DNA from: Ruminococcus sp.
GTDB taxonomy: Bacteria > Bacillota_I > Bacilli_A > RF39 > UBA660
NCBI GenBank assembly: GCA_023663235.1
Contig: JAMPHW010000001.1
Location: 188,195-220,753, forward strand
Reading direction: 5' to 3'
DNA: 32,559 nucleotides
The notes beneath the pieces were generated by a model. The model made no database searches and was not told where the DNA came from. It saw only the letters and a program-made list of their open reading frames with translations. This document shows positions 18,308 through 32,559 of this stretch, piece after piece (the stretch's first letter is position 1; every line of letters begins with the position of its first letter). Position numbers and translations under genes: made by a program.

Positions 18308-18440
18308 CATCATCGTAGATTATGCAATCACTACAAAAATGTCAGAGGAAGAAATTTTAAATTGTTTGTTTGAAGTTGGAGCGGATAATAAGGACAGTAT
18401 TTTTCACGAAACTTATTGTAGTATAAAAATGAATATCTAA
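18303..18440 (+). pseudogene. 3' half of a gene split by integration
   Basis: 45 codons and a TAA are open from the left boundary with no start codon. The encoded segment begins DDIIVDYAITTKMSEEEILN and ends SIKMNI. Its codons look like those of the element. Joined at GA to 32460-32504 it becomes a complete 60-residue protein starting at ATG 32460. I do not recognise the family. The stop lies 17 bases before VirB4, so it would head the transfer operon in the circular form. Confidence 0.55.
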
Positions 18441-18457
18441 AAATAAGAGGTTTAGAT

Positions 18458-20797
18458 ATGAAAAAGAATAAAAAGAAAAAAGTTGAAAAGTCTGTCTTAA
18501 ATTTACTTCCTTTTAAAGAAGTTTGGAACGATCTTTTATATCTTGATAATGATAAGGTCGTTGGACTTATTCGTGTTAATAGCATTAATTTACAATTATA
18601 TTCTAACGAAGAACAAACATCAAAAATTTTTCAGTTAAGGAAAGTTTTATTAAGTTTAGAATATCCGTTTAAAATTCTAGCACTTGATAAGCCAGTTAGT
18701 TTAACGGATCATATCGAAAACTTAAATTATCTATCACAAAATACAGATGATGAGATAAAAAAGAAATTGCTTGATGAAGATATTCATTTTGCAAATACCA
18801 TTATGAATAAAAACATCGTCAATAATCGTGAATTTTATTTACTTATTGATGAAGATAAAGACAATGCAAAATTGTTAAAATCTAAAATAAATGATATTAC
18901 ATCACAATTAAGTAATATCGGTCTAGCTTCAGAACAAGCTAAAACTGATGAGATTAAGGAAGTACTTTTTACTTACCTTAACCCTCAAGAATCACTAGAA
19001 ATTTTTAAACAAGATTCTAGTATAAAATCAATTAAAGAAAAAATCGCACCTATTGCTATTAAGTTTAATGAAAAAGATATGTTACTAGGCGATGTTTTCG
19101 CTACAAGTATGATTATCGATACATTCCCCTCTTACACTAGGGGAAGTTGGTTAGGTATGCTATCTAACATTAAAGATACTCGTATGATTATTTCTGTTAA
19201 GCCAATGGATAATGTCGAGGTTTCCAAAACATTAAAGAAAGGTATGTCAGAAACAAGAAGTAAATATATCAATACAAACGATAGGAACGATCAAATCATG
19301 CTTAAAAATCAATTACAAGATTACGAGCAACTTACAAATAAAATGGATCGTGAAAATGAAAAAATGCTACTAATGTCGGTAGTGTTTTTTTCTTATGCGG
19401 ATACAAGAGAAGAATTACAAAAACGTATTAAAGAGATAAAATCTGCGATGTCTTCTCTTAATCTTCGTGGATCACAATTAATATTCGAGCAAGAACAAGG
19501 TTTTAAGACTGCACTTCCTACTTTAGATATGCCAATACAAGAAAATTTTGGTCTTCCAATGCCTGCGACTACGGTAGCGGCCTCTTTTCCCTTTGTTTTT
19601 GAAAGTATCCAAGATGACGGAAATTCAATCATACTAGGCGATGATATAAACGGCGGTCTTACCATGTTTGATTTATGGAAAAGAACAAATAAGAGAACTA
19701 ATTCTAATGTTTGTATCATCGGTAAAAGTGGATCTGGTAAGTCCACCCTTATTAAGAAATTAATACGTGGTAACTGGGCCAGAAAAACTAAAATTGTATG
19801 TATTGATCCAGAACGCGAACTAAAAGAAATGTGTTTGTCTGTGGGTGGTACTTGGATCGACGCTGGTAGTGGATCAGGTTTTATAATTAACCCACTTGAA
19901 ATAAAAAACTCTACTAATGATGAAGATAATAATGTCGCTGTAATTAAACATTTACAAACATTTAGAACTTTCATCAAGTATTATTTTAAGGATCTAACAG
20001 AACTTGAACTTACTAAAATTGAAGAATTACTTTTAAGAACTTACAAAAATAAAGGTATTACTTTAGATACTGATGTTAGCAAATTATCTTCTAATGATTA
20101 TCCAATCATTACAGACTTTCATAATGAGATTGTTAAAGAATTAGAGAAAGCTAAAAATGATAAACGTGTTAATGATGATAATGTTAAGTCTTTAGAAAAA
20201 ATCGAGGCCATAGTAAGACGTATGACTACGGGCGTTGATAGTAAATTATGGAATGCTCCAAGTAATGTTGATTTAAGTTCTGATTTTATTGTTTTTGATA
20301 TACATAGTTTGCTTGAAAGTGATGATACCATATTAAGAACTCAATTCTTTAATATCCTATCTTTATGTTGGCATATAATTAGTCAAGATCGCGACGAACA
20401 AATTATGTTGATTATAGATGAAGCTCATCTTTTAATCGATCCTAACAATAAAGACGGCCTAGAATTTCTTAAAAGAACGAGTAAAAGAATTAGAAAGTAT
20501 GCGGGTAGTATGGTTGTCTGTACTCAAAATATGATTGACTTTACTTCCCCAGAAGTTGTTAGATACGGTCAAGTTATAGTTGATAATTCTGACTATCAAT
20601 TTGTATTAGCACAAGGTAGCGAAGAAATTATCTCACTTCAAAAAGTATTAAGGTTAAGTGAGAATGAACGACGTTACTTACAAACGGCGGGTAAAGGTCA
20701 AAGTTTACTTGTTATCTCTCATGATAAAAGAGTTCCTATCTTTATACATCTTCGTCCAGAAGAAAAAGAATTATTTGGTAAAGGTGGTGGCCGATAA
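18458..20797 (+). CDS. VirB4-family conjugation ATPase
   Basis: The protein has 779 residues. The N-terminal half matches the VirB4 N-domain layout (LLPFKEVWNDLLYLDNDKVV opening). The C-terminal RecA-like domain has Walker A GKSGSGKST (about 421-429) and Walker B IMLIIDEAHLLID (about 650). The motif KRTSKRIRKYAGSMVVCTQN follows, as in the TrsE/TraE group of Gram-positive systems. It powers the type IV secretion channel at the inner membrane face. AAGAGG precedes the ATG. The stop TAA overlaps the proposed ATA start of the next gene. Confidence 0.93.
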   Translation: MKKNKKKKVEKSVLNLLPFKEVWNDLLYLDNDKVVGLIRVNSINLQLYSNEEQTSKIFQLRKVLLSLEYPFKILALDKPVSLTDHIENLNYLSQNTDDEIKKKLLDEDIHFANTIMNKNIVNNREFYLLIDEDKDNAKLLKSKINDITSQLSNIGLASEQAKTDEIKEVLFTYLNPQESLEIFKQDSSIKSIKEKIAPIAIKFNEKDMLLGDVFATSMIIDTFPSYTRGSWLGMLSNIKDTRMIISVKPMDNVEVSKTLKKGMSETRSKYINTNDRNDQIMLKNQLQDYEQLTNKMDRENEKMLLMSVVFFSYADTREELQKRIKEIKSAMSSLNLRGSQLIFEQEQGFKTALPTLDMPIQENFGLPMPATTVAASFPFVFESIQDDGNSIILGDDINGGLTMFDLWKRTNKRTNSNVCIIGKSGSGKSTLIKKLIRGNWARKTKIVCIDPERELKEMCLSVGGTWIDAGSGSGFIINPLEIKNSTNDEDNNVAVIKHLQTFRTFIKYYFKDLTELELTKIEELLLRTYKNKGITLDTDVSKLSSNDYPIITDFHNEIVKELEKAKNDKRVNDDNVKSLEKIEAIVRRMTTGVDSKLWNAPSNVDLSSDFIVFDIHSLLESDDTILRTQFFNILSLCWHIISQDRDEQIMLIIDEAHLLIDPNNKDGLEFLKRTSKRIRKYAGSMVVCTQNMIDFTSPEVVRYGQVIVDNSDYQFVLAQGSEEIISLQKVLRLSENERRYLQTAGKGQSLLVISHDKRVPIFIHLRPEEKELFGKGGGR

Positions 20798-21483
20798 TAG
20801 AAGATGTAATCGGTAAAATCATGAAAGGTAAAATGCTGATTGCTCTTCTACCGGTCGCTGGAATTATCTTTATTGTTTTGATTATTCTTGCTGTCATAGC
20901 TGCTGTATTTGGAAATGAAGAAACATTTTATAGATCTTATTTTGTTCTTCCATTCGATACTAATACTTATACGATTACATCGCCTTATGGGGAAAGAACA
21001 GATCCTATCAATAATACTACGGCCTTTCATAGTGGTATAGATGTTGTTCCTACTTCTTCAAATATTGTGGCCGTAGCTGACGGAACAGTTGTTATAAGTG
21101 AAATGCAAGAATCAGGTGGCGAAACGGTTGTCATAGAACATAAACTTGGTGGCGTTTTGTACCGAACTTTCTATCATCATTTAAAAGAAAATTCAAGAAC
21201 AGTAAAAGTTGGCGATGTAGTTACACAAGGACAACAAGTTGGTATTATGGGATCGACTGGCCGAAGTACTGGCGATCATTTGCATTTTTCACTTCAAAAA
21301 TATAATGTTAAAGATCAGAAATTCGAGTACACCGATCCTAGCATTATTATAAATAATAAAGTTACTTCAAAAGAATATTCACTATTCGACTATACGGATA
21401 ATAAATTTAGTTTCCCAGATAATGATTATATGAAAAATAAATTACCTACACCAGATTATCAAAAACCTACTCTAACACCATAA
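20797..21483 (+). CDS. Membrane-anchored M23 peptidase (VirB1-like cell-wall hydrolase)
   Basis: One TM helix is followed by a LytM/M23 domain with HSGIDV (HxxxD), HHLKE and DHLHFS (HxH), i.e. a complete zinc site. It probably opens peptidoglycan for the transfer channel; the lytic transglycosylase half found in many Gram-positive VirB1-like proteins is absent. Conventional ATG 20821 has no convincing Shine-Dalgarno. I propose ATA 20797: AAAGGTGG lies upstream and the VirB4 stop and ATA overlap as TAATA, in the manner of classic TAATG coupling. That adds IEDVIGKI before MKGKML. The protein is 228 residues with ATA or 220 with ATG. Confidence 0.85.
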   Translation: MEDVIGKIMKGKMLIALLPVAGIIFIVLIILAVIAAVFGNEETFYRSYFVLPFDTNTYTITSPYGERTDPINNTTAFHSGIDVVPTSSNIVAVADGTVVISEMQESGGETVVIEHKLGGVLYRTFYHHLKENSRTVKVGDVVTQGQQVGIMGSTGRSTGDHLHFSLQKYNVKDQKFEYTDPSIIINNKVTSKEYSLFDYTDNKFSFPDNDYMKNKLPTPDYQKPTLTP

Positions 21484-21496
21484 TTATATGATTAAA

Positions 21497-21528
21497 ATTA
21501 TGGCCTAACTTTAGGCCGTAATTTTTTC
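21497..21528 (+). terminator. Intrinsic terminator after the M23 gene
   Basis: GGCCTAA - ct - TTAGGCC is extended by ATTA/TAAT across one G-T pair and followed by TTTTTT. Confidence 0.8.
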
Positions 21529-21539
21529 ATATATTTATT

Positions 21540-21828
21540 TATAATTTGGCGAAAATTTTATAAAAAGCAAAAAAATAAGTGTTTACGATTGTTACACCCC
21601 CCTTATAAATAAAGGGTTGTGATGTAAACGATTGTATAACATTTTTTTAAAATGTAAACACTTGTGTTTCATCAAATACCTTATGAAATAAGGTAAAACT
21701 AGCCACTGGCTAGTTGTTTGTAAACAGGTTTTATCCTGCTTTAAAAAGGTTGCAAATATTTAAGAATTTTTTAGTATTTTGTGGCCGAGAGTTAGGCCGA
21801 AGTTATGGCCTTTAGAAAGGAATATAAT
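21540..21828 (+). other. Hairpin- and iteron-rich region, candidate oriT
   Basis: This is the only long gene-free stretch inside the element (345 bases including the terminator). It contains GTAAAC-type sites at 21581 (inverted), 21623, 21653 and 21719, and the direct word ACGATTGT at 21585 and 21628. Hairpins are CCCTTAT/ATAAaGGG (about 21599-21616), ACCTTAT-gaa-ATAAGGT (about 21678), AACTAGCC-act-GGCTAGTT (about 21697) and CAGG/CCTG (about 21725). A direct repeat GGCCGA(G)AGTTA lies at about 21783-21806. It sits immediately upstream of the RHH-like accessory and relaxase genes, as origins of transfer usually do. The nick site cannot be named. Confidence 0.55.
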
Positions 21829-21960
21829 ATGAAATTATTTTTAATTATTTTAGGTATTAATCTAGCATTATTTACTATCTTATTTTTGTATTGTGCTTGT
21901 GTGTTGTCTAGTCGTGCTGATCGACAAATAGAATATATGAATAAAAAAAATAAAAATTAA
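21829..21960 (+). CDS. 43-residue single-TM protein of the mobilisation operon
   Basis: ATG 21829 follows AGAAAGGA. The peptide is MKLFLIILGINLALFTILFL, then a Cys-containing end of the helix (YCACVLSS) and a basic polar tail. It has one TM segment and no known family. Its place between the oriT-like region and the RHH-like proteins suggests a membrane accessory of the transfer system. Confidence 0.6.
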   Translation: MKLFLIILGINLALFTILFLYCACVLSSRADRQIEYMNKKNKN

Positions 21961-21983
21961 ATTATTTAAAGGGGGTTGTTAAA

Positions 21984-22163
21984 ATGAATGATAAAAAAAG
22001 TGTATATTTAAAATTACAAGTTGATACCAAAACAGAAAAAGCATTTAAAAAGATTTTAGAAATGAAAGGTCTTACAATTCAAAGTGTTTTGGAAAATATG
22101 ATTAAAAATTACATCTTTGAAAACCTTGATTGTATCATGGGTGCTAATGGATCAGGAAAATAA
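21984..22163 (+). CDS. Small RHH-like DNA-binding accessory protein
   Basis: The protein has 59 residues from ATG 21984, eight bases after AAAGGGGG. The N-terminal strand SVYLKLQVD and two helices (TEKAFKKILEMKG, TIQSVLENMIKNYI) fit a ribbon-helix-helix fold like that of relaxosome proteins. Its end overlaps the next gene by 17 bases, suggesting coupling. It may bind the iteron-like sites just upstream, alone or with its neighbour. Confidence 0.65.
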   Translation: MNDKKSVYLKLQVDTKTEKAFKKILEMKGLTIQSVLENMIKNYIFENLDCIMGANGSGK

Positions 22164-22581
22164 AAATGCGAACATTATCGCTTTTCGATTAGATCCTCAT
22201 AAGAAAAAATTATTACAAGATCAGGCCGAACAAAACAATATGAAAGTTAGTGAATATTGTAAAAATATTTTACTTGATTTTATGGAACAATCAATGTTAT
22301 TAGATAGTCAAAAAAAATTAAGAGAGCTTATCATTGAAACGGTTAAGGACGCGAACGAAAAACAATTTTATAAAATACTTACTATGATTAATAAAAATAA
22401 TGTTGGTATTGAAACGATTATTTTACAAAATGATATGACATATAAATATTTTGATATTCCTCAAACTAGGGCTGAACTTAACACTCATCTAGTTAATCAC
22501 CCTATAACAGAAGTAGCTCGCGAACAAGTCTTAAAAAATATTCGTGAATTAAGAAGTAAAAAGGACAATGTAGATGAGTAG
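22147..22581 (+). CDS. MobC-like relaxosome accessory protein
   Basis: The protein has 144 residues from ATG 22147; an upstream in-frame ATG (22117) would lie deep inside the previous gene. The start IIAFRLDPHKKKLLQDQAEQ continues NNMKVSEYCKNILLDF, the strand-helix-helix pattern of MobC/RHH proteins. A helical C-terminus follows. It overlaps the relaxase start by 8 bases. Such proteins bind oriT and help load the relaxase. Confidence 0.72.
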   Translation: MDQENKNANIIAFRLDPHKKKLLQDQAEQNNMKVSEYCKNILLDFMEQSMLLDSQKKLRELIIETVKDANEKQFYKILTMINKNNVGIETIILQNDMTYKYFDIPQTRAELNTHLVNHPITEVAREQVLKNIRELRSKKDNVDE

Positions 22582-24001
22582 TAATATCGTTACTCGTGTT
22601 CGTTATAAGAAAGATGTAAATTTTCAAAGGTTGGTTGGTGGTTGGTGTAAGTATGTTTCAAAGGACGGAGCTGATACCACTTCCCTAAAAGATTTCTCTT
22701 CTATTGATGAATTATATCAGAAAGAATTTAATATTTTTGATGACACCGAAGAAACAAAGGAATTTCATATCTGGGGTAAAAATGGTAATGTTACTAAAAG
22801 AGATATTTTAAAAGATTTACCGAATGGCAAGTCTGGTCGTATGTGGAATTTAGTTGTTTCATTTCCTCCAGAATTTGCTCTAAAAAATGGCCTTAAAACA
22901 AAAGAAGATTATTACTTGATGACAAAGTCTGTTATTCCAAGATTTATGTTAGACAATGATTTTGATTTAACTAATACAAGGTGGTATGCAAGTCTTCATC
23001 GGGATACTGGAAACCCACATTTGCACATAACTTTTTTTGAAATGGAAGAACGAAGAAAAAAAGATACTTTAGATAAAACATCACTTAAATATTTAAAAAG
23101 TAATATAGCTTCTTATTTAGTAGATAATACCTCTTTTTATAAAGAACAAGATTATTTATTTTTAGGCCTAGATAACAAAATTAGAAAAAGTAATTTTACT
23201 AAAACAGAAGATAATTTGTTCTTTAGCAATAAGTTTAGAAAATCATTAAATAAAGATTTACTAGAATTATATAAAAAGTTACCTAGTCGTGGCCGTCTTC
23301 AATATAATTCAAAACATTTAGATTATTGTAGAAAAGATATTGACAAGATAATTGAAAAAATTTTATATCATGATACAATCAAATATGAATTTGAAAAATA
23401 TTATCATTCTTTAGAATCAATAGAACGCGAACAAAAAAAGATGTATGGGGAAAAAGCAAATAACAAGTACATTGAAAATAAAATGAAAAGATTATATTCT
23501 CGTATTGGTAATGATATTTTATATAATTTTAAAGTTTATAATTCTACTGATTTTTTAGATCGTCAAAAAGAATTTTTAAAAATTAATATAATGAATATGG
23601 AATTTAAAAGTAAAAGTCCAAAAAAGAAATCTACAATTTTAAAACATGCAAAAGAAATTTACCAGTTAGGAAAACTTGCTGATTTATCGGAATCAGATAT
23701 TAAGAAGTTATTAAGTAAATGGATCAAGAAGTCTAATATTGATTATGATGTTGATATTCTATATAGTGCGGTTAGTAGTTCTCGTGATACGATCAATGCT
23801 ACTGACTTTTATAAAGCACTTTCTCATTTAGGATACACCAAAGAAAGATATAATAATTTTAAGTCAAAGTCATTTTATAAGAACATAAAATTTAAACAAT
23901 TTATGAAAAAAGCAAATAATTTTTTACTTACTGAAAACAAAAAAGAAGAAAGATATTTACAAGAAATTTTAGAAAAAGAATTACAAGGAAAAGATATTTA
24001 A
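22574..24001 (+). CDS. MobL/MobP-type relaxase
   Basis: The protein has 475 residues. The metal-binding motif LHRDTGNPHLHI (about 140) is the three-His signature of Firmicute MobL/MobP3-type relaxases. GRMWNLVVSFPPEFA upstream of it is also typical. Early Tyr residues (for example in CKYVSKDGAD) are candidates for the nicking tyrosine. The C-terminal half is Lys-rich and helical. The enzyme nicks oriT and carries the strand into the recipient. It is translated with the MobC-like gene (8-base overlap), and its TAA is part of the TAAGGGGGT ribosome site for VirD4. Confidence 0.85.
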   Translation: MSSNIVTRVRYKKDVNFQRLVGGWCKYVSKDGADTTSLKDFSSIDELYQKEFNIFDDTEETKEFHIWGKNGNVTKRDILKDLPNGKSGRMWNLVVSFPPEFALKNGLKTKEDYYLMTKSVIPRFMLDNDFDLTNTRWYASLHRDTGNPHLHITFFEMEERRKKDTLDKTSLKYLKSNIASYLVDNTSFYKEQDYLFLGLDNKIRKSNFTKTEDNLFFSNKFRKSLNKDLLELYKKLPSRGRLQYNSKHLDYCRKDIDKIIEKILYHDTIKYEFEKYYHSLESIEREQKKMYGEKANNKYIENKMKRLYSRIGNDILYNFKVYNSTDFLDRQKEFLKINIMNMEFKSKSPKKKSTILKHAKEIYQLGKLADLSESDIKKLLSKWIKKSNIDYDVDILYSAVSSSRDTINATDFYKALSHLGYTKERYNNFKSKSFYKNIKFKQFMKKANNFLLTENKKEERYLQEILEKELQGKDI

Positions 24002-24014
24002 GGGGGTTATAAAA

Positions 24015-25874
24015 ATAAAGAAATATTTTAATTACATATTAGTAGTTATTATTTCTTTATTGCTTCTTATCTTCATCATTCCAAACTTTATATATTTTAT
24101 TCAAAATAAATTTGAAATACATTTTATTTTTAATTTTATAGAGCTATTAAAAATGATAATAGATGATAAGAATTTAATTGTTGGCATTCTGATTTCGGAA
24201 TGTCTTTTTATTTTGTTTTTACTTTATTATAAATATAATTTTAAGATTAAAAATAATGCAAATGATAACGGCATTCCAAAAAGAATAAAAAGCAATGAGT
24301 TTGGTAGTAGCGACTTTGCTAGTTTAAAAGAGATAAAAGAAAACTTTTCTACTTGGCACTTTGGGAAAAATAAGGGTGCTGGTGGAATGGTTATTGCAAT
24401 AGAAAATAATAAATACTATGTTGATACTTCATCAAATCATACTTTAGTTGTCGGAAGTACCGGATCAGGTAAAACGGTCGGTGTTATTTTTCCTCTCATT
24501 TATAATTTAGCTGATAATGGCGAAAGTATGATTATAAATGATGTTAAAGGCGAAATTTATAAGACTACTTATGATTATTTAAAGAAAAAAGATTATGACA
24601 TTCAAATTATTAATTTACGTGATACATCAAACAGTAGTTTCTGGAATCCTTTAGAAATTGCATATCAATATTATAAAGAGAATAATTTTGAAAAAGAAAT
24701 TGAAACAATAAACGATTTATCAAATGCAATTTGTGAAGATGTAACAAGTCGTGATAAGTACTGGCAAGAATCGTCTTCCTCTGTTTTAAGTGCTTTATGC
24801 TTAGCTTTAATTGAAGACGCAAAGAAACAAAGTCAAATACATTTTCATTCCATATATAATTTACTTGTCGAGCATGGATCTAAAAAATACGGCGATCAGA
24901 ATTCTTTAGATAAGTATTTCAGTGATCGTCCTTTTGGTAATACTGCTAAAAATTTATACGCAAGTGGTAATTTTGCTCGTGGGGAAACAAGAGCTACTAT
25001 TTTTTCTATTTTAGCGTCAAAATTAAGGGTGTTTGGCGATACTGGGGTTAGTTACATTACAAGTAAGTCTTCATTCAATATAAGGGATATTGGAAAGAAA
25101 AAAACGGCTATTTTTTTAATTGTTCCAGATGAAAAACTTTCTCGTCATTTTATTGGTGGTTTATTTGTTAATCAAGTATATCAAACACTTGTTGAAGAGG
25201 CCCAGAAAAATGCTAGTGGCTCTCTTCCTATTAGAGTAAATTTTATCCTTGAAGAATTTTGTAATACAATAAAAATTAGTGAACTGTCTAAAAAACTCAC
25301 AGTAGCCCGTTCCCGTAAAATTCGTTTTTATATGGTAATTCAAGACTACAATATGCTTAATGAAACATATAAAGAAACAGCCGGAACAATCAAAGCAAAC
25401 GCTGGAAATACAGTTTACTTACTTACGAATGATTATAGTACGGCTCGCGAGATTTCAAACCGCATGGGGAAATATACGACTTGCACTACTCGAACATCAA
25501 CATCTAATCGTTATGGCAAAGCTGATTTTAATATTTCTTCTGATACTTCATTGACTGGTCGAGATTTAAGAACGCCAGATGAACTTATGAATATAAAAGT
25601 TGGCGAGGCAATTATATTAAGAACTCGTATGTCGCCTATTAAAACTAATTTTAAACAAATAAGTGATTATCCTATCAAATATAAAGTTGTTGATAAAATA
25701 ATTTTCAAACAAGATGAATTTTATAAGTTAGAATTATTTGATTTAGATACTTTTAGGATCGAACAAGAATTATTTAGTAATACCAATGATGAAATTATCC
25801 AGATTACACCTACCAAGAAAGCAAACCCTACTAAAAGGAAAAAGAAAGATGTCGTATCCAAAACAGACGATTAA
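24015..25874 (+). CDS. VirD4/TraG-type coupling protein, proposed ATA start
   Basis: The protein has about 619 residues. The frame upstream of TTG 24060 encodes KIKKYFNYILVVIIS, a basic N-terminus leading into the first TM helix, which TTG would cut in half; TTG also has no ribosome site. ATA 24015 lies eight bases after TAAGGGGG, the spacing seen in other genes of this element; ATA 24009 is the only close alternative. A second TM lies at about 50-70. Walker A VVGSTGSGKT is at about 145. The Walker B region reads INFILEEFCN (about 408), followed by arginine-finger and sensor-like motifs typical of TraG/VirD4. It links the relaxosome to the channel. Its 3' end overlaps the methyltransferase gene by 26 bases. 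Confidence 0.85.
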   Translation: MKKYFNYILVVIISLLLLIFIIPNFIYFIQNKFEIHFIFNFIELLKMIIDDKNLIVGILISECLFILFLLYYKYNFKIKNNANDNGIPKRIKSNEFGSSDFASLKEIKENFSTWHFGKNKGAGGMVIAIENNKYYVDTSSNHTLVVGSTGSGKTVGVIFPLIYNLADNGESMIINDVKGEIYKTTYDYLKKKDYDIQIINLRDTSNSSFWNPLEIAYQYYKENNFEKEIETINDLSNAICEDVTSRDKYWQESSSSVLSALCLALIEDAKKQSQIHFHSIYNLLVEHGSKKYGDQNSLDKYFSDRPFGNTAKNLYASGNFARGETRATIFSILASKLRVFGDTGVSYITSKSSFNIRDIGKKKTAIFLIVPDEKLSRHFIGGLFVNQVYQTLVEEAQKNASGSLPIRVNFILEEFCNTIKISELSKKLTVARSRKIRFYMVIQDYNMLNETYKETAGTIKANAGNTVYLLTNDYSTAREISNRMGKYTTCTTRTSTSNRYGKADFNISSDTSLTGRDLRTPDELMNIKVGEAIILRTRMSPIKTNFKQISDYPIKYKVVDKIIFKQDEFYKLELFDLDTFRIEQELFSNTNDEIIQITPTKKANPTKRKKKDVVSKTDD

Positions 25875-26985
25875 TCTTTTTAATTTTAATTATCCATATT
25901 TAAAATTAGATAAGAAAAATGTTAAGGTGGGTACTTTCTTCTCTGGAATTGGTAGTCCAGAAATGGCTTTTAAACGATTAAAGGAAAATGGTATCATTGA
26001 AAATTATGATCCTGTTTTCTTTTGTGAAATAGACAAATTCGCAATTAAAAGTTATTGTGCTATTCATGATAAAAGTCCAAGTGATAATTTAGGTAGCATT
26101 ACAGAAGTTGACGGATCTAAAATTCCTTATGCGGATATATGGATCGGTGGTTTTCCCTGTCAGGATATTTCAATAGCTGGTGTAAGGCGTGGTTTTGATT
26201 TTAATAGCAATACTAGATCCTCTTTAGGTTGGAAGATGATACAATTTTTAAGAGAAGTAAAAGAACAACCGAAAGTTGTCATTTTTGAAAATGTGGCTGC
26301 AATTACCCAAAGCAAAATGAAAAGAACTTTAGATTTATTCAAAAAAGATTTAGAAGATTTAGGTTATTCTTTATATGATAATGTTTTATGTGCTTTAGAT
26401 TATAATACCCCTCAAAATAGAGAAAGGTATTTTTTAATTGCAATTAAAGGAAAATATTTATATCATTTTCCAGAAAGACAAAGACTTAAATTAAGATTAA
26501 AGGATCTACTAGAAAAAGAGATTGATTCAGATTTAATATTATCTGAAAAAGTTCACTTTGATTTAGAAAGTTTTGTTAAGAATAAAAACTATTCTAAAAA
26601 TAGTAAGTTGTGTTGTCGTAATCTAAAAAATAAAAAGAAAAAATATGTTATTGATCTATATAGATTTATCGAGGGTAAAAATTATTGTGGACGTGATACT
26701 TCCTCTAGGTACAATCAAACGGCTAGACTATGGTCGATGAACGGTTATTGTCCTACTTTAACCGCTAATTCTACCGAAGATACTAGCAAAATGATTATTT
26801 ATCGTAATAATTGTTTCTTTGTAAAAAAAATAAGTCCACTTGAAAGCTGGCGACTTATGGGGTTTAATGATGAAGATTTTTACAAAGCAAAAAATGTTGG
26901 TACTTCAAATCGCCAGTTATATAAACAAGCTGGTAATAGTATTGCAACAAATGTAATTTATCATATATTAAAAAATTTATTTTAG
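25849..26985 (+). CDS. DNA cytosine-5 methyltransferase
   Basis: The protein has 378 residues. Motif I is GTFFSGIGSPEMAF, motif IV is GGFPCQDIS with the catalytic Cys, motif VI is FENV and motif VIII is QNRERYFLI. A target-recognition region follows, then motif IX/X with KQAGNSIATNV. All catalytic parts are present. No restriction enzyme is nearby, so it is an orphan, probably marking the element DNA against host restriction after transfer. ATG 25849 is chosen because the earlier in-frame ATG (25786) lies inside VirD4. The recognition sequence cannot be read by eye. Confidence 0.93.
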   Translation: MSYPKQTINLFNFNYPYLKLDKKNVKVGTFFSGIGSPEMAFKRLKENGIIENYDPVFFCEIDKFAIKSYCAIHDKSPSDNLGSITEVDGSKIPYADIWIGGFPCQDISIAGVRRGFDFNSNTRSSLGWKMIQFLREVKEQPKVVIFENVAAITQSKMKRTLDLFKKDLEDLGYSLYDNVLCALDYNTPQNRERYFLIAIKGKYLYHFPERQRLKLRLKDLLEKEIDSDLILSEKVHFDLESFVKNKNYSKNSKLCCRNLKNKKKKYVIDLYRFIEGKNYCGRDTSSRYNQTARLWSMNGYCPTLTANSTEDTSKMIIYRNNCFFVKKISPLESWRLMGFNDEDFYKAKNVGTSNRQLYKQAGNSIATNVIYHILKNLF

Positions 26986-27022
26986 AATGTACTTGAATGA
27001 TATATATAATTATCCAATAATG

Positions 27023-27031
27023 TGATATAAT
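27023..27031 (+). promoter_or_regulatory. Extended -10 promoter TGATATAAT
   Basis: TGA-TATAAT precedes the protease gene and gives a leader of about 44 bases. AATTTA/TAAATT in this leader can fold around the GGAGG site. Confidence 0.55.
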
Positions 27032-27081
27032 TATTTGTAACAACAAAACGATAAATGATAATTTATATTTGGAGGTAAATT

Positions 27082-27594
27082 ATGAAAGAAAGAATATCAA
27101 ACAATTCAAGAAAGTGGTTAAGTTTAATTATTGCTATATTTTTATATTATATAATTCATGAAGGTAGTCATGTTATAGTAGCAATACTTTACGGAGTATT
27201 TGAAAAAATAAGAATATTAGGTTTAGGCGTTCAAGTAGTTGCAAAAACAGAACTTTTAACAGACTTTCAAACGGCTATGTTTTGTGTTGTGGGAAGTATA
27301 AGTACATTATTGGTATCATATTTATTGGTTTTATTTGTTAAAAAAATAGTAGATAGTAAAAATAAAATTTTAAAAGCAATTTGCTATTACACTACACTTG
27401 CTTTTATGTTATTAGATCCAATATACTTAACAATATTATACAAGTTTGTAGGTGGCGGAGATATGAACGGTATTTTATTATTTGGAATACCTGAAATTGT
27501 AGTTCAACTTATTTATGGAATTATTGCAATAATAAATATTTTCTTGATTATTAAAAAAATATATCCTGCATACAAGAAAAGTTTTAGTGAATAG
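27082..27594 (+). CDS. M50-like membrane metalloprotease
   Basis: The protein has 170 residues and four or five hydrophobic segments. An HEGSH motif (HExxH) lies in the first helix (about 26-30), as in site-2-type proteases. A later LLDP and GGGDMNG segment could supply the third ligand. It is short for M50 and lacks a PDZ domain. The substrate is unknown: possibly a signalling anti-sigma factor, a peptide pheromone or an immunity role. GGAGG precedes the ATG, and it has its own promoter and terminator, which suggests cargo rather than transfer function. Confidence 0.65.
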   Translation: MKERISNNSRKWLSLIIAIFLYYIIHEGSHVIVAILYGVFEKIRILGLGVQVVAKTELLTDFQTAMFCVVGSISTLLVSYLLVLFVKKIVDSKNKILKAICYYTTLAFMLLDPIYLTILYKFVGGGDMNGILLFGIPEIVVQLIYGIIAIINIFLIIKKIYPAYKKSFSE

Positions 27595-27603
27595 TTTCCT
27601 ATT

Positions 27604-27637
27604 AGATTATCACAAAAATTGATAATCTTTTTCTTTT
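27604..27637 (+). terminator. Intrinsic terminator after the M50-like gene
   Basis: AGATTATC pairs with GATAATCT over a 9-base loop, followed by a T-rich run. Confidence 0.75.
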
Positions 27638-27720
27638 TGTATATATTTCTATATTTATTTATGTTATAATGAATTTGATAGTAATTGCTGAAAACAATTA
27701 AAAATAACTTGCTTGTTTTG

Positions 27721-27749
27721 TTGACTTCACCTTAAGTTTAATGTATGAT
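27721..27749 (+). promoter_or_regulatory. Promoter TTGACT-17-TATGAT
   Basis: TTGACT (27721-27726) and TATGAT (27744-27749) are 17 bases apart. A leader of about 42 bases precedes the ATG at 27798. Confidence 0.7.
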
Positions 27750-27797
27750 AAGAAAACACACCTCGCAAGAGTCCTATCTTTTAAGGAGCTGTATATT

Positions 27798-28307
27798 ATG
27801 AAGTCAAATTTTAATGAATTGAAAGATCTTATAACAGAAATGAACGATCTAAACGATCAAATTAGTTTTATTAAATTTAATAATGACGAGGGTGTCAAAT
27901 TTGATAGTGTCGAAGATATGAAAGACTTTTTTTTAAAAGTAGAAAATGGTAATCTTGATTATTTATTTGATGATGTAAATTGTGAAGTACAAATACCGCA
28001 AAAAGAATTAGTAGAAAGTTTTAATCATACAAAAAATGATATTTATTTTTTCCTATATACTTATGAAAAAGATGATAAATTTATTACATATCTTTCAATG
28101 AAACATTTAAAAGACGATCATGTTATTGATAATTTATGTGGTAAAGAAAATAAAGATAAAGAATCAGCTCATAACTGGTTTGAGGAACTTAAAGAAAATA
28201 TATTAAATACCAATATTGATGAATTAATAGAAACATTAATTATTGGTGTTAAAAATACAATAAAAAGTTTAAAAATTGAAATGCAAAACTTGGCTAGCGT
28301 TGGCTAG
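27798..28307 (+). CDS. Acidic accessory protein of unknown function
   Basis: The protein has 169 residues from ATG 27798, which has AAGGAG 9 bases upstream; an ATG further upstream (27741) lies inside the promoter. It is soluble, acidic and helical at both ends (NELKDLITEMNDLNDQ at the start; DELIETLIIGVKNTIKSLKI near the end). I recognise no domain. It is a monocistronic unit between its own consensus-like promoter and a CTAGC/GCTAG terminator, a pattern expected for an independently expressed early or anti-defence gene. That is inference only. Confidence 0.6.
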   Translation: MKSNFNELKDLITEMNDLNDQISFIKFNNDEGVKFDSVEDMKDFFLKVENGNLDYLFDDVNCEVQIPQKELVESFNHTKNDIYFFLYTYEKDDKFITYLSMKHLKDDHVIDNLCGKENKDKESAHNWFEELKENILNTNIDELIETLIIGVKNTIKSLKIEMQNLASVG

Positions 28308-28316
28308 TCTTTTTTT
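28294..28316 (+). terminator. Intrinsic terminator CTAGC-GCTAG
   Basis: CTAGC - gttg - GCTAG is followed by TC and seven T. A similar CTAG-type terminator ends the gene at 30103. Confidence 0.7.
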
Positions 28317-28342
28317 GTGTTATATAATAAGGGGGTTAAATT

Positions 28343-29317
28343 ATAGAAATAAAGAAAATTTTAAATGAAATAAGTAATTGTTCCAAACAAAATAATTTTG
28401 ATAGGATCAATTCACTTACTCTTGATTTAGAAAAAAATATTTTGGATAGTTACAAAAGCAATCATGACTTTATTAGATTAATAGATGTCATTACAACTTA
28501 TAGTAACTATTCTTTTTTTAATAGTTTATTAATTGATTATCAGTACCCTTTCTTTTTAGATTTAGGAACTAAAAACAAATATGCAAAACAAGGTGTTAAT
28601 ATTGTAGATAATGCAAAAGTAATTAATATATTATCACCTAACAATGATATTTATATAAAAATTAATGATACTGATAAAGAAGAAATAAAAAAATTAGATG
28701 AGCTATCACCGGAAGAATTAAAAAGATATAACGATCCAAAGGACACATCAATCACACTTCATCATAAAGACTTTAAAGGTTTAAATGTTATTGAACTATA
28801 TGATTGTAAAGATACTGATATGAAACAAGAAGATTATATGAAGTTAGATCTACCGCCTCTTTATTTTCATGATTATAATGATATTTATACGCCTTTTGTT
28901 AAAACTTTATATGCTGACGGTTATAAAATAAGTTATTGTGATAATTTAGATACAAAGTTTTCCTATGACAAAGAAAACAAAACTATCAATATTAAAAATG
29001 GCCTTAATTGTCAAATGAAAATGATGTGTCTTCTTGAGGTCTACTCTTCTGATATAACTTCAAATGAATTTGATAAAAATTTACTTAATTATGCAATTCA
29101 TAAAAATATTGGTATGGAAGACAATTTTACTGATAATTTTTCCTTTTTAGATTGGTATAAAAATACTGATATAAAAGAAGTAGAAAAAAGTCTAAAATTG
29201 TTATCTTCTAAAGGTAGAAAATTTATTACTAATTTTAATCGTTTCTTTGATATAGAAAAAGAAAAATTTATTTATGAAAAAGTTAGTTTATATGATGACA
29301 TTTCTTTTTCAATTTAG
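28343..29317 (+). CDS. ArdC-N-like protein, proposed ATA start
   Basis: The protein has about 324 residues. The region SNYSFFNSLLIDYQYP, followed by KQGVNIV and INILSP, recalls the ArdC N-terminal domain, a ssDNA-binding anti-restriction module. The ArdC HExxH is not visible; the equivalent position may be LLEVYSS. The in-frame TTG at 28442 has no ribosome site and is preceded by 33 coding-like codons. The frame opens only after a TAA at 28337-28339. ATA 28343, seven bases after AAGGGGG, is the best start, with ATT 28340 as an alternative. A TATAAT (28323-28328) with TTGGCT 17 bases upstream abuts the ribosome site. Confidence 0.6.
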   Translation: MEIKKILNEISNCSKQNNFDRINSLTLDLEKNILDSYKSNHDFIRLIDVITTYSNYSFFNSLLIDYQYPFFLDLGTKNKYAKQGVNIVDNAKVINILSPNNDIYIKINDTDKEEIKKLDELSPEELKRYNDPKDTSITLHHKDFKGLNVIELYDCKDTDMKQEDYMKLDLPPLYFHDYNDIYTPFVKTLYADGYKISYCDNLDTKFSYDKENKTINIKNGLNCQMKMMCLLEVYSSDITSNEFDKNLLNYAIHKNIGMEDNFTDNFSFLDWYKNTDIKEVEKSLKLLSSKGRKFITNFNRFFDIEKEKFIYEKVSLYDDISFSI

Positions 29318-29321
29318 GGCG

Positions 29322-29350
29322 CTGACATCTTTTTTATAGCGCGTTATAAT
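29322..29350 (+). promoter_or_regulatory. Promoter CTGACA-17-TATAAT with GCGC hairpin
   Basis: CTGACA (29322-29327) and TATAAT (29345-29350) are 17 bases apart. GCGCT (29320-29324) and AGCGC (29338-29342) inside it can pair. The word GCGCGTTATAATT recurs at 30364-30376, upstream of the recombinase. Confidence 0.65.
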
Positions 29351-29370
29351 TGATTTGTGAGGTGGTATTC

Positions 29371-29604
29371 TTGAATTATAAAAATGAAATAAAAGAAAAA
29401 ACATTAAATTCTTATAGTGATTTATTGAGTGATATTATCTATATCTATTATAAGAATAAAAAAGATATTTCAAAAAAAGATATTCTAATGGAACTTTTAA
29501 CTATTAGAGAACTAAAAAGATCGGAAGTTGATACTATTTTTGGTAATGCAATCGAACTTGTTAAAGTAAAATATAGTATTGATATTTCAAAAAATAGAAA
29601 GTGA
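29371..29604 (+). CDS. Small unknown protein, TTG start
   Basis: The protein has 77 residues from TTG 29371, preceded by GAGGTGG. It starts (M)NYKNEIKEKTLNSYSDLL and is Lys/Ile/Leu-rich and helical, with no membrane segment or recognised motif. The initial frame from TTG 29350 overlaps the promoter's -10 box and is not used. It is followed 13 bases later by the next unknown gene and probably forms a two-gene unit with it. Confidence 0.6.
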   Translation: MNYKNEIKEKTLNSYSDLLSDIIYIYYKNKKDISKKDILMELLTIRELKRSEVDTIFGNAIELVKVKYSIDISKNRK

Positions 29605-29617
29605 GTGTTTAAATATT

Positions 29618-30103
29618 ATGAAAGATTTTAATAGAAATAATATGTCTAATTTATTTTATGATTTTGTTGTTAACTATGAAAGTAATAAAGATGATAAAAA
29701 AAATTCTAAATATTTATTTAAAGATAAAAATTCAAAAAATGCAATTAGAGCATTAACAGAACAATGGTATATGGAAGATACAATGTATTTTATCTTTCTA
29801 TGTAATAACAAAGAACATGCTTTAAAAGAAATTAAAGAAATGTTAAAAACTAAAACAGGAACAGAGCTTTTAATTGGAAGACTTGATAATACTTTTGAAA
29901 ATGATTCAGATTGTTACATATCACAGATTGAAGATTTAGATTATTTAACAAAAGATTTAGTAACAAGAGATCAGCTTTCTATAATTGTAAATAGAAAATT
30001 TGAGTTTGATGATGAATTTAAAGAAAAAGATTATTTTAATTTATATATTAAATTTAAAGATTTAAGTAATATGTTAAAATCTTATTATGAAGTATCATTT
30101 TAA
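29618..30103 (+). CDS. Unknown acidic accessory protein
   Basis: The protein has 161 residues from ATG 29618. It is rich in Asp, Lys and Phe, with a central EQWYMEDTMYFIFLCNN segment. It has no signal peptide, TM segment or known domain. A weak GTGAG site lies upstream. It is the second gene of the unit driven by the promoter at 29322 and ends at a strong terminator. The EQWYMEDT words resemble DQWYLEDT in the recombinase, but the surroundings do not match. Confidence 0.55.
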   Translation: MKDFNRNNMSNLFYDFVVNYESNKDDKKNSKYLFKDKNSKNAIRALTEQWYMEDTMYFIFLCNNKEHALKEIKEMLKTKTGTELLIGRLDNTFENDSDCYISQIEDLDYLTKDLVTRDQLSIIVNRKFEFDDEFKEKDYFNLYIKFKDLSNMLKSYYEVSF

Positions 30104-30109
30104 CAAACT

Positions 30110-30139
30110 GATTAGGTCAACGGCCTAGTCTTTTTTTTA
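30110..30139 (+). terminator. Intrinsic terminator
   Basis: GATTAGG pairs with CCTAGTC, with one T-G pair, over a 7-base loop and is followed by eight T. Confidence 0.75.
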
Positions 30140-30190
30140 TGTGGGCGAATATTATATAACAAATACTATAAATTTAAGGGGGTTTTAGAA

Positions 30191-30349
30191 ATTAGTAAGA
30201 GAAAGAATAAAAAGGAAACAAAATTTATATATAGTGAAGAATTTATAACTAACACCACTAACCCCACCGAAGAAGAATTAAAAGCTATTTTCAACAAGAA
30301 ATATTTTAAATATATAAAAAGACTTGAAAATAGAACTTTAGGGGGCTGA
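30191..30349 (+). CDS. 52-residue basic protein with ATT start
   Basis: The frame codes for (M)SKRKNKKETKFIYSEEF, then ITNTTNPTEEELKAIFNKKY and a basic end at TGA 30347-30349. There is no ATG, GTG or TTG in frame, but ATT 30191 lies eight bases after TTTAAGGGGG. The content, with NPTEEELKAIFNKKY then IKRLEN, looks like a genuine short conserved protein of the type often found before serine recombinases of Gram-positive elements; that resemblance is from memory. It could be an excision or regulatory factor. It overlaps the ribosome site of the next small gene. Confidence 0.55.
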   Translation: MSKRKNKKETKFIYSEEFITNTTNPTEEELKAIFNKKYFKYIKRLENRTLGG

Positions 30350-30353
30350 ATTA

Positions 30354-30428
30354 TTGAAACAAGCGCGTTATAATTTTATTGAGCTTGAAATTACGATTAA
30401 AAATAAGGAGATGTATTTTTATGAGTAA
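30354..30428 (+). CDS. 24-residue leader-like ORF coupled to the recombinase
   Basis: TTG 30354 lies eight bases after AGGGGG. The peptide is (M)KQARYNFIELEITIKNKE followed by MYFYE. Its stop overlaps the recombinase start as ATGAGTAA (30421-30428), so translating it would bring ribosomes to the recombinase. It may be a regulatory leader rather than a functional protein. Confidence 0.45.
   Translation: MKQARYNFIELEITIKNKEMYFYE
30364..30376 (+). promoter_or_regulatory. Repeated -10 module GCGCGTTATAATT
   Basis: This 13-base word is identical to 29340-29352. It contains TATAAT (30369-30374), with CTGAAT (30346-30351) 17 bases upstream, so a second promoter inside the leader ORF could drive the recombinase directly. 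Confidence 0.5.
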
Positions 30429-32478
30429 TATAATAAAAGCTGTAAAATCTATTTTAAGGGTGGTGTTATATTTAAGATTGTCTGATGAAGACAGAAACAA
30501 GTTAACAAAGGAACAATTATCAGAAAGTATTAAGAATCAAGAAACGATGTTAAGAGAATATGCGGAAGAAATGGGCTGGGAAGTTATTGGCGTTTACAAT
30601 GATGAGGACTGGTCTGGATCGGACGCTACTCGTCCAGATTTTAATAGAATGATTGCTGAATGTGAAAAAGGTAATGTTGATATTGTTTTAGTTAAAACAC
30701 AAGCAAGATTTGCTCGTGATATGGAATTAGTAGAAAAGTACGTTCATAATCTTTTCCACCAATGGAATGTCAGATTTATAACATATATTGAAAAAATTGA
30801 CAATACAAGAAAAGAAACAAAGAAAACAAGTCAATTAACTGCTATGACAGATCAATGGTATTTAGAGGATACATCATTAAATATTCGTGAAACTTTTAGA
30901 TCTAAAAGAAAGAATGGCGAATTAACAGCAAGTTTTGCTAGTTATGGTGTAATGAAAGATCCAGAAAATAAAAATCATTTGCTTATCGATCCTATCGCTT
31001 GTGAAGTTGTTAAAAGAATTTTTGATGAATATATGGCCGGTAATGGCTTAGGAAAAATCGCCGACAATTTAAACAAAGACAAAATATTAAGTCCTTATGA
31101 ATATAAACTTTTAAATGGGTGCAAATTAAAGATACCTTTAATAAAAGAATATTTAGACTTTGGTTATATTGAAAAAGCTGGTACATATATGCTTAATATA
31201 AGTTTTACAAATAATGAAGATCATATTTTAAAAGATTTAGTTAGTTTTAACTATATTACTACTGATATGAAAACACTTAATAATAAATGTGATATTACTT
31301 TAAGAAAATTCACAGATAAAAAAACAAAAATATATTATAGCGAAGATGAAAATTTAGACATTAACAATTTTAATATAGATGATTGTGTTTTATTAAATGA
31401 AAACGATGTTTTACCAAAAAATGCAAAAGTATTAATATCTTTTACAAAAGAACTTGATCGTACGCATGTTATTGATTACCAATTTGAAATTACATTAAAA
31501 GAAAACAGAGCTCATGAGGAATATTTTATAAATATAATAAAAAACAATGCTAATGGAATATTACAATCAGAGTTTACACATAATTTAAGAAAAAAATTCA
31601 AATGGTGTAGTCAAACAGTTAAAAAGATACTTACTGATGAAGTCTATATCGGTAATTTAGTTCAATTTAAAACAACAACGGTAAGTTATAAAAATCACAC
31701 AGTTATTAAAAATGATGATGAAGATAGAATCAGAAAAGACAATACTCATGAATCGATTATTGATAAAAATGTTTTTTATACAGTTCAAGAAAGAATGCAA
31801 GAAAAATCAAGAAGTAGTCAAGGCGGCGAAGTTCACGCATTTAGTAATAAAGTATATTGTATGAATTGTAATAGATTATTCTTCAAGTGTGGTAAGAAAA
31901 ACGAAAACGGATATTGTTATTTATGTTGTAAAGATAAAAAAGATAGTTGGGCTAATTGTGATAATAAAAAATATCTTCACGAGGAAGAATTACATAGCTT
32001 CATTTTAGAAAAAATAAATAATGTGTTAACTAGGTTTTATGATGAGGATAGTCTTAAAGAAATGAATAACGAAGAAATAGAACAAGATTTATTTAAAGAC
32101 AAATTAAATTCATTAGAACAAGAATTAAAAAGTATTAATAAGGAATTACAAGGTAAAAGTACATATTTCCAAAAACTATATGAAGATCGAGCAAACGGGA
32201 TACTTCCGGAAAAAGAATTTTTAATCTTACTTAACAAGTATAAAGATGATAATTCTAAATTAGAAGAACGATCAAATATTATAAAAAAAGAGATAGCTTC
32301 TACTACCGCTAAAAAAGAAAGTTTAAAAAGTAAGAAGAATATCTTTAAAAAATATAAACATATAGATAAACTTAATGTTGAAATCGTTGGCGACTTTATA
32401 GATAAAGTATTAATCGGTCATTACAACGATGAAACAGGATCAAGAGAAATTAAGGTATTATGGAACTTTACCATTTAA
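30421..32478 (+). CDS. Large serine recombinase, TnpX/TndX type
   Basis: The protein has 685 residues from ATG 30421, which has AAGGAG upstream; the frame from TTG 30379 runs through the promoter. The resolvase domain shows LYLRLS with catalytic Ser21 and the Arg-containing KTQARFARDMELV. The recombinase domain (about 170-245 and 395-460) ends in VKKILTDEVYIGNLVQFKTT. A zinc ribbon (about 478-520, CMNCN..CG...CC...C) and a coiled coil (about 545-640) follow. About 150 residues (about 240-390) interrupt the recombinase domain. TnpX, about 700 residues, is similar in length. It should integrate and excise the element at GA cores. Confidence 0.93.
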   Translation: MSNIIKAVKSILRVVLYLRLSDEDRNKLTKEQLSESIKNQETMLREYAEEMGWEVIGVYNDEDWSGSDATRPDFNRMIAECEKGNVDIVLVKTQARFARDMELVEKYVHNLFHQWNVRFITYIEKIDNTRKETKKTSQLTAMTDQWYLEDTSLNIRETFRSKRKNGELTASFASYGVMKDPENKNHLLIDPIACEVVKRIFDEYMAGNGLGKIADNLNKDKILSPYEYKLLNGCKLKIPLIKEYLDFGYIEKAGTYMLNISFTNNEDHILKDLVSFNYITTDMKTLNNKCDITLRKFTDKKTKIYYSEDENLDINNFNIDDCVLLNENDVLPKNAKVLISFTKELDRTHVIDYQFEITLKENRAHEEYFINIIKNNANGILQSEFTHNLRKKFKWCSQTVKKILTDEVYIGNLVQFKTTTVSYKNHTVIKNDDEDRIRKDNTHESIIDKNVFYTVQERMQEKSRSSQGGEVHAFSNKVYCMNCNRLFFKCGKKNENGYCYLCCKDKKDSWANCDNKKYLHEEELHSFILEKINNVLTRFYDEDSLKEMNNEEIEQDLFKDKLNSLEQELKSINKELQGKSTYFQKLYEDRANGILPEKEFLILLNKYKDDNSKLEERSNIIKKEIASTTAKKESLKSKKNIFKKYKHIDKLNVEIVGDFIDKVLIGHYNDETGSREIKVLWNFTI

Positions 32479-32504
32479 AAATAATAAAGAAGAATAAAAC
32501 AATC
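32460..32504 (+). other. 5' half of the gene split by integration
   Basis: ATG 32460 has AAGG four bases upstream, overlaps the last 19 bases of the recombinase gene in another frame, and runs open for 15 codons (MELYHLKIIKKNKTI) to the proposed right end. Joined at GA to 18303-18440 it gives a 60-residue protein. In the integrated state the frame continues into flanking repeat DNA instead. Confidence 0.5.
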
Positions 32505-32506
32505 GA
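32505..32506 (+). other. Proposed attR core (GA)
   Basis: The right junction reads AAAACAATC-GA-GCAACTGG. Unlike sequence starts here, namely a perfect 18-base tandem repeat with no start codon. Confidence 0.55.
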
Positions 32507-32559
32507 GCAACTGGACCTATTGGAGCAACTGGACCTATTGGAGCAACTGGACCTATTGG
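32505..32559 (+). repeat. 18-base tandem repeat coding a collagen-like GATGPI motif
   Basis: Three identical copies of GAGCAACTGGACCTATTG run to the window edge. The frame GCA ACT GGA CCT ATT GGA gives GATGPI repeats (Gly-X-Y), typical of collagen-like surface proteins in low-GC bacteria. A TAA at 32495-32497 closes the frame upstream and there is no start codon, so this is the interior of a gene. Perfect tandem copies at a contig end can also be collapsed or mis-joined by assembly. Confidence 0.7.

Follow-up and report, generated by a model that had tools for sequence, protein, structure and literature searches.

The window analysed here, a stretch of 32,559 nucleotides (nt) of a 1.5-Mb metagenome-assembled genome (MAG; G000:C11:188195-220753), contains a left-truncated integrative conjugative element (ICE). 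Comparison with related elements makes it very probable that the family to which this ICE belongs translates many of its genes, including virD4, from AUA codons, and less often from AUU or AUC, placed behind a long Shine-Dalgarno (SD) helix. This arrangement is proposed to serve as a translational throttle. The comparison strongly supports the ATA and ATT codons as conserved start sites at which initiation would proceed without AUG. The evidence for these predicted sites is strong for the virD4, ArdC-like, mobC-type and 52-amino acid (aa) genes, and weaker for candidates that are found in a single element.

Ribosome sites and start codons in the window

A sequence-only reading of the window had identified five genes preceded by AGGGGG, and all five sites are present on the plus strand at positions 21970, 24001, 28330, 30177 and 30340. 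The codons that follow are ATG at 21984, ATA at 24015, ATA at 28343, ATT at 30191 and TTG at 30354, each located 8 nt past the last G with the exception of 28343, where the spacing is 7 nt. The first site, AAGGGGGT at 21969..21976, belongs to a small NikA/MobC-type gene of 59 aa (21984..22163, plus strand). The same sequence at 24000..24007 overlaps the stop codon of a MobL-type relaxase gene (22574..24001, plus strand; ATG start with an ordinary weak site) and precedes virD4 (24015..25874, plus strand, 619 codons), which encodes a coupling protein of the CD1115 family. Two further copies of AAGGGGGT precede the ArdC-like gene (site 28329..28336; gene 28343..29317, plus strand, 324 codons) and the 52-aa gene (site 30176..30183; gene 30191..30349, plus strand). 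The fifth site, TAGGGGG at 30339..30345, precedes an open reading frame (ORF) of 24 codons (30354..30428, plus strand) that overlaps the start of the large serine recombinase gene (30421..32478, plus strand, ATG start).

The reading was also correct in that the frames of virD4, the ArdC-like gene and the 52-aa gene offer no ATG, GTG or TTG with a ribosome site. In frame, a canonical codon is first encountered at TTG 24060 in virD4 and at TTG 28442 in the ArdC-like gene; the frame of the 52-aa gene contains none at all. Since none of the three genes has a canonical start with a ribosome site, the ATA and ATT sites are the only choice. For the ArdC-like gene, a non-AUG start holds, while the exact codon may be the directly preceding ATT at 28340 instead of the ATA at 28343 that had been named. 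In a scan of 348 long ORFs of the window genome, with the element included, ATA after a strong site was the sole option for two genes only, virD4 and the ArdC-like gene.

Pairing of the ribosome site along the anti-SD sequence was confirmed: AAGGGGGT and 5'-ACCUCCUU-3' form eight pairs, one of which is G-U. Although the window's own MAG lacks the standard 16S tail, GGATCACCTCCTTTCT, another genome from the genus has it; given the tail in that genome, an unusual host anti-SD was rejected as a cause of the weak starts. The hexamer AGGGGG occurs seven times in the window versus 2.65 times expected by shuffling, a count reached in 2 of 100 shuffles. The whole 1.5-Mb genome contains eight occurrences of AAGGGGGTT, four of them in the element.

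Conservation of the start sites in related elements

Near-identical elements, with 96% identity in VirD4, were found in multiple assemblies, which represent three or more genera of the host family. More divergent elements (76–80%) are represented by L092/UBA7476, G371 and G447. The virD4 ATA is invariant in the five element types and is located exactly 8 nt past GGGGG, across a spacer that itself varies (ttataaaa, ttatgaaa, ttgttaaa, ttataact and ttattgtt). As had been claimed from the window, the codons at the beginning of virD4 are coding: the VirD4 sequence IKK... is kept, and 12 of 14 codons are identical or synonymous in L092. VirD4 relatives with 47–53% identity belong to further ICEs of the same host family. 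Their virD4 genes mostly lack a usable canonical start and instead present ATT at a spacing of 7 (G251, G233), ATC at 7 (G358) or ATA at 9 (G126); among these ICEs, a plain ATG is found only in two G180 elements.

In ten elements, a strong site precedes ATA (in one case ATT) in the ArdC-like gene, and none of the ten has an ATG with a site. The ATT-ATA pair is kept at a spacing of 7–8 in five element types. The label "ArdC-N-like" that had been given to this gene stands for the family, since a G251 homologue passes the Pfam models ArdcN and Peptidase_M78; the protein encoded in the window does not pass either model.

In other genes the start codon alternates between canonical and non-canonical forms. 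The 59-aa NikA/MobC-type gene begins with ATG in all five window-type elements and with ATA, ATT or TTG in more distant ICEs, as in ATG-AAT-AAC (G035), ATA-AAT-AA/AG (G038, G233, G358), ATT-AAT-AAT (G060, G216, G168) and TTG-AAT-AAT (G126). The 52-aa gene starts with ATT in the window and in G019, with TTG in L092 and with ATG in G447 and G032. Gene 9681 of G019 has ATG in that element, ATA in G371 and TTG in G447. The TTG of the ORF at 30354 is replaced by ATG at the same codon in L092 and is shifted in the G019 copies.

A question raised by the sequence-only reading was how general AAGGGGG-N8-ATA/ATT is among other elements. Starts with ATA, ATT or ATC do recur in relatives; AAGGGGG is not essential, and AAGGAGG, GGAGGG or GGAGGTGAT is mostly used in its place. 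The G run is therefore one local form of a general habit in the wider ICE family.

Element-wide counts

Start codons behind a GGRGG site were counted for ORFs of at least 80 codons in 13 related ICE contigs (25% G+C) and on three host chromosomes (G000 without the element, G251 and G180). The ICE starts consisted of 53 ATG, 15 TTG, 1 GTG, 42 ATA, 6 ATT, 2 ATC and 14 other codons; the chromosomes yielded 141 canonical codons, 7 ATA/ATT/ATC and 27 others. Expressed as fractions, ATA, ATT or ATC accounts for 50 of 119 element starts (69 being canonical) versus 7 of 148 host starts (Fisher p = 5e-14), where the counts include some homologous genes of related elements that are not fully independent, as well as some host flank in the ICE contigs. 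When the element ORFs without a canonical start were considered, the codon 6–8 nt past the site was ATA, ATT or ATC in 46 of 64 (ATA in 39), against an in-frame background of 9.2% (ATA 3.7%; p = 1.6e-33). In the next five codons downstream, these triplets made up 8–16%. General use of AUA by the host was ruled out on the three chromosomes. A few chromosomal ORFs present candidate non-AUG starts, namely GGAGGTGCGGTC-ATA (345 aa) and GGAGGTGATTAAC-ATT (541 aa), in L125 (minus strand) and in the L189-L198 region of G251 (minus strand).

Alternative explanations

Several observations weigh against non-AUG initiation as a family trait. The start calls were made in uncultured gut-type hosts by comparison only, and the calling procedure favours cases with a strong GGRGG site. 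Internal ATA codons of virD4 were kept in 20 of 34 pairwise comparisons; because such codons are often kept too, the invariance of the virD4 ATA is weak evidence when taken alone, and codon conservation was set aside as the sole proof of a start. Some virD4 copies also deviate. The in-frame codon 7 nt past GGAGG is GTA in G060, G216 and G168, where ATG-TAA lies between the two out of frame, and G409 has TTA. The virD4 of G038 (L009, 1490-1530) reads AGGAGGAATGTTAATAAAAAAATAATAG, in which an ATA at a spacing of 7 after GGAGG is followed by A7 and virD4 is out of frame by one, as a result of either an assembly error, a pseudogene or slippage at the A run. As a group, the deviations in G060/G216/G168, G038 and G409 may represent errors, decayed copies, frameshifting or even weaker starts. 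At L008, L133 and L135, the virD4 5' end reads GGAGGGATAAATGTAAAAATT, with an out-of-frame ATG and then TAA between the ribosome site and virD4, and an in-frame GTA at a spacing of 7.

A final point of this kind is an in-frame ATG located 1–2 nt past the G run in virD4 of G019, G251, G233 and L132, which could be a poor start. If so, virD4 would begin directly after the G run and the poor spacing would act as the brake. The corresponding position in the window is 24009, two codons before the spacing-8 ATA; it is ATA in the window and ATG, 2 nt after GGGGG, in the near-identical G019-type copies, and the ATG of G251 and G233 has a spacing of 1. An enrichment of ATH two codons upstream of the called start (16 of 42) would also fit. 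This explanation is nevertheless improbable. The codon is GTT in L092, ATA in G371 and ATT in G447, while the spacing-8 ATA is invariant; a distance of 1–2 nt is far below the usual spacing, and an ATG of this kind is missing from the ArdC-like and mobC-type genes.

A start at the downstream TTG codons of virD4 and the ArdC-like gene, with the upstream codons serving as an untranslated leader, is less probable again. TTG 24060 is present in L092 and G371, and TTG 28442 in G019 and L092; however, neither has a ribosome site. The homologues do not bear out these codons as alternative starts, as the first is TTA in G447 and the second is TTA in G371. Furthermore, the codons upstream of the TTGs are conserved as protein, and the 52-aa gene and several relatives lack any canonical codon.

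There is only a slight chance, smaller than that of the downstream TTGs, that the G-run motif functions chiefly in regulation or as a promoter, with the weak starts being incidental to it. In the window, TATAAT lies directly 5' of the AAGGGGG at 28329, and copies of a 12-mer, TTTAAGGGGGTT, are repeated inside individual elements. G019, though, lacks the TATAAT, and each element has the motif at a fixed 6–8 nt before the starts of over ten genes, including cases within operons and cases where the motif overlies upstream coding sequence, while relatives exchange the G run for AAGGAGG or GGAGGTGAT and yet keep ATA or ATT.

Errors of assembly or sequencing that turned ATG into ATA or ATT, which a MAG and changes limited to the third position might lead one to consider, can practically be dismissed, as the same codons occur in independently assembled elements from several studies with 76–96% identity (including those at 76–80%), the ATA/ATT/ATC starts are tied to ICEs and not spread across chromosomes, and no relative has ATG at these codons in virD4 or the ArdC-like gene.

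Proposed mechanism and the host translation machinery

For initiation at AUA, AUU and AUC, it is proposed that the long SD helix 6–8 nt upstream (AAGGGGGU in the window; AAGGAGG or GGAGGUGAU in relatives) would hold the codon in the P site, where the initiator tRNA would then accept a mismatch at the third position. The result would be a conserved throttle that combines strong and precise site selection with a low output of VirD4, the ArdC-like protein and others, and that would be sensitive to initiation factor IF3 and to the state of the ribosome. By analogy with known cases in Staphylococcus aureus, it is most likely that the long helix selects the codon and that the poor codon limits output. 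We infer the use of initiator fMet-tRNA, the low output, a benefit from that low output and the sensitivity to IF3.

The host gene for IF3, infC, begins with TGGAGGTGC-N-ATA in the 15 genomes of the genus that were read (L106, L145-L159), and G036 has ATC. Other Bacilli also start infC with ATT, ATA or ATC, albeit with exceptions; ATT or ATA was seen in several families. Since the host infC starts with ATA behind a strong SD, host ribosomes would already initiate at AUA. A link between element expression and IF3 is plausible, with the ATA start of the host infC as circumstantial evidence. It is a more speculative and rather unlikely proposition that the AUA and AUU starts form a coordinated ICE regulon, in which transfer and accessory genes rise and fall with the AUA-started IF3 gene of the host. 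If this were true, transfer competence would read the state of the host initiation machinery.

Two other causes were considered and rejected. Loss of IF3 does not apply as infC is present in the host. An initiator tRNA with another anticodon is not encoded by the element, as no tRNA was found in the window or in the ICE parts; the three tRNAs that were found, on contigs that include host flanks, are those for Cys, Gly and His.

Organization and range of the element

The element occupies 18303..32542 of the window (plus strand) and aligns in three blocks, with 87–92% DNA identity, to an ICE from the same-genus genome G019. The left part of the G019 ICE, with ssb, a VirB6-like gene and other transfer genes, has no counterpart in the window; therefore, the window copy is truncated. 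Homology to the intact G019 ICE starts abruptly at 18303 within a gene. With the left part missing, it is doubtful whether the window copy is itself mobile. Besides the genes described above, the element contains a VirB4-type ATPase (18458), an M23 peptidase (20821) and a DNA C5-methylase (25786), such that a relaxase, VirB4, a coupling protein and a recombinase are all found within one element. At 32479-32559, the end of the element adjoins a collagen-like repeat composed of GGAGCAACTGGACCTATT units, and this right junction is shared by the G019 copy, which suggests that the serine recombinase integrates into Gly-X-Y repeat genes.

Near-identical copies of the G019-type ICE (96% VirD4 identity to the window) are located at L090, L094, L126 and L127, in other genera, pointing to recent spread between genera. 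One metagenome bin (UBA7476) holds two different ICEs of the family, L092 and L102/L182. A sample of 395 genomes of the class contained strong VirD4 relatives only in the host's own family, and the ICE family appears to be confined to this one family of Bacilli in the genomes sampled. No VirD4 relatives were found in viral contigs, and those of plasmids were at most ~35% identical and lacked a useful 5' end. The same hosts carry a second type of ICE, whose VirD4 is 34–38% identical and which uses ATG, and once GTG, where a site can be assigned. The use of weak starts is thus a habit of the present ICE family, rather than a general property of conjugation in these hosts.

Comparison with known systems

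Natural AUA and AUU starts are known gene by gene. In the ICE family, their frequency after strong sites nearly equals that of AUG, whereas the host background hardly contains them. In the open-licence literature searched, no description was found of AUA starts in conjugative elements or of their element-wide use. The mechanism, rescue of a weak start by an extended SD, is already known. In this family, one could study naturally occurring weak starts to learn what selects for them and whether gene transfer is gated by the level of IF3. In practical terms, gene callers that accept only ATG, GTG and TTG will truncate VirD4 and the ArdC-like proteins and will miss small genes such as the 52-aa gene.

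With respect to its transfer genes, the ICE resembles elements of the CD1115 type, as its coupling protein passes the CD1115 model NF045973 with 341 bits versus a cut-off of 250. The nearest model to its VirB4 is that of the mycoplasma ICEs (Mbov_0397 type), with a score below the cut-off of that model.

With respect to initiation, one close likeness is to infC of bacteria, the host included, where ATA or ATT stands behind a strong SD at 7–9 nt and is conserved over long distances; a shared link to discrimination by IF3 is plausible. However, infC is a single autoregulated chromosomal gene, whereas many genes of the ICE share the feature and none of them encodes IF3. In Staphylococcus aureus, the AUA starts of infC, ccpN and citZ and the AUU start of cvfC1, all with an extended SD, were demonstrated by initiation profiling and reporters, with an output of about 10% of that of AUG, and up to 30% for ccpN in rich medium (PMC13009471). 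The ccpN (AUA), cvfC1 (AUU) and citZ (AUA) genes of S. aureus and B. subtilis are similar to those of the ICE in that extended SD pairing rescues the AUA or AUU codon (PMC13009471). Their output is low and sensitive to conditions (PMC13009471), and by analogy that of the ICE genes would be low as well. In contrast to these single chromosomal genes, the starts proposed for the ICE are element-wide, include AUC and are drawn from comparison between related elements.

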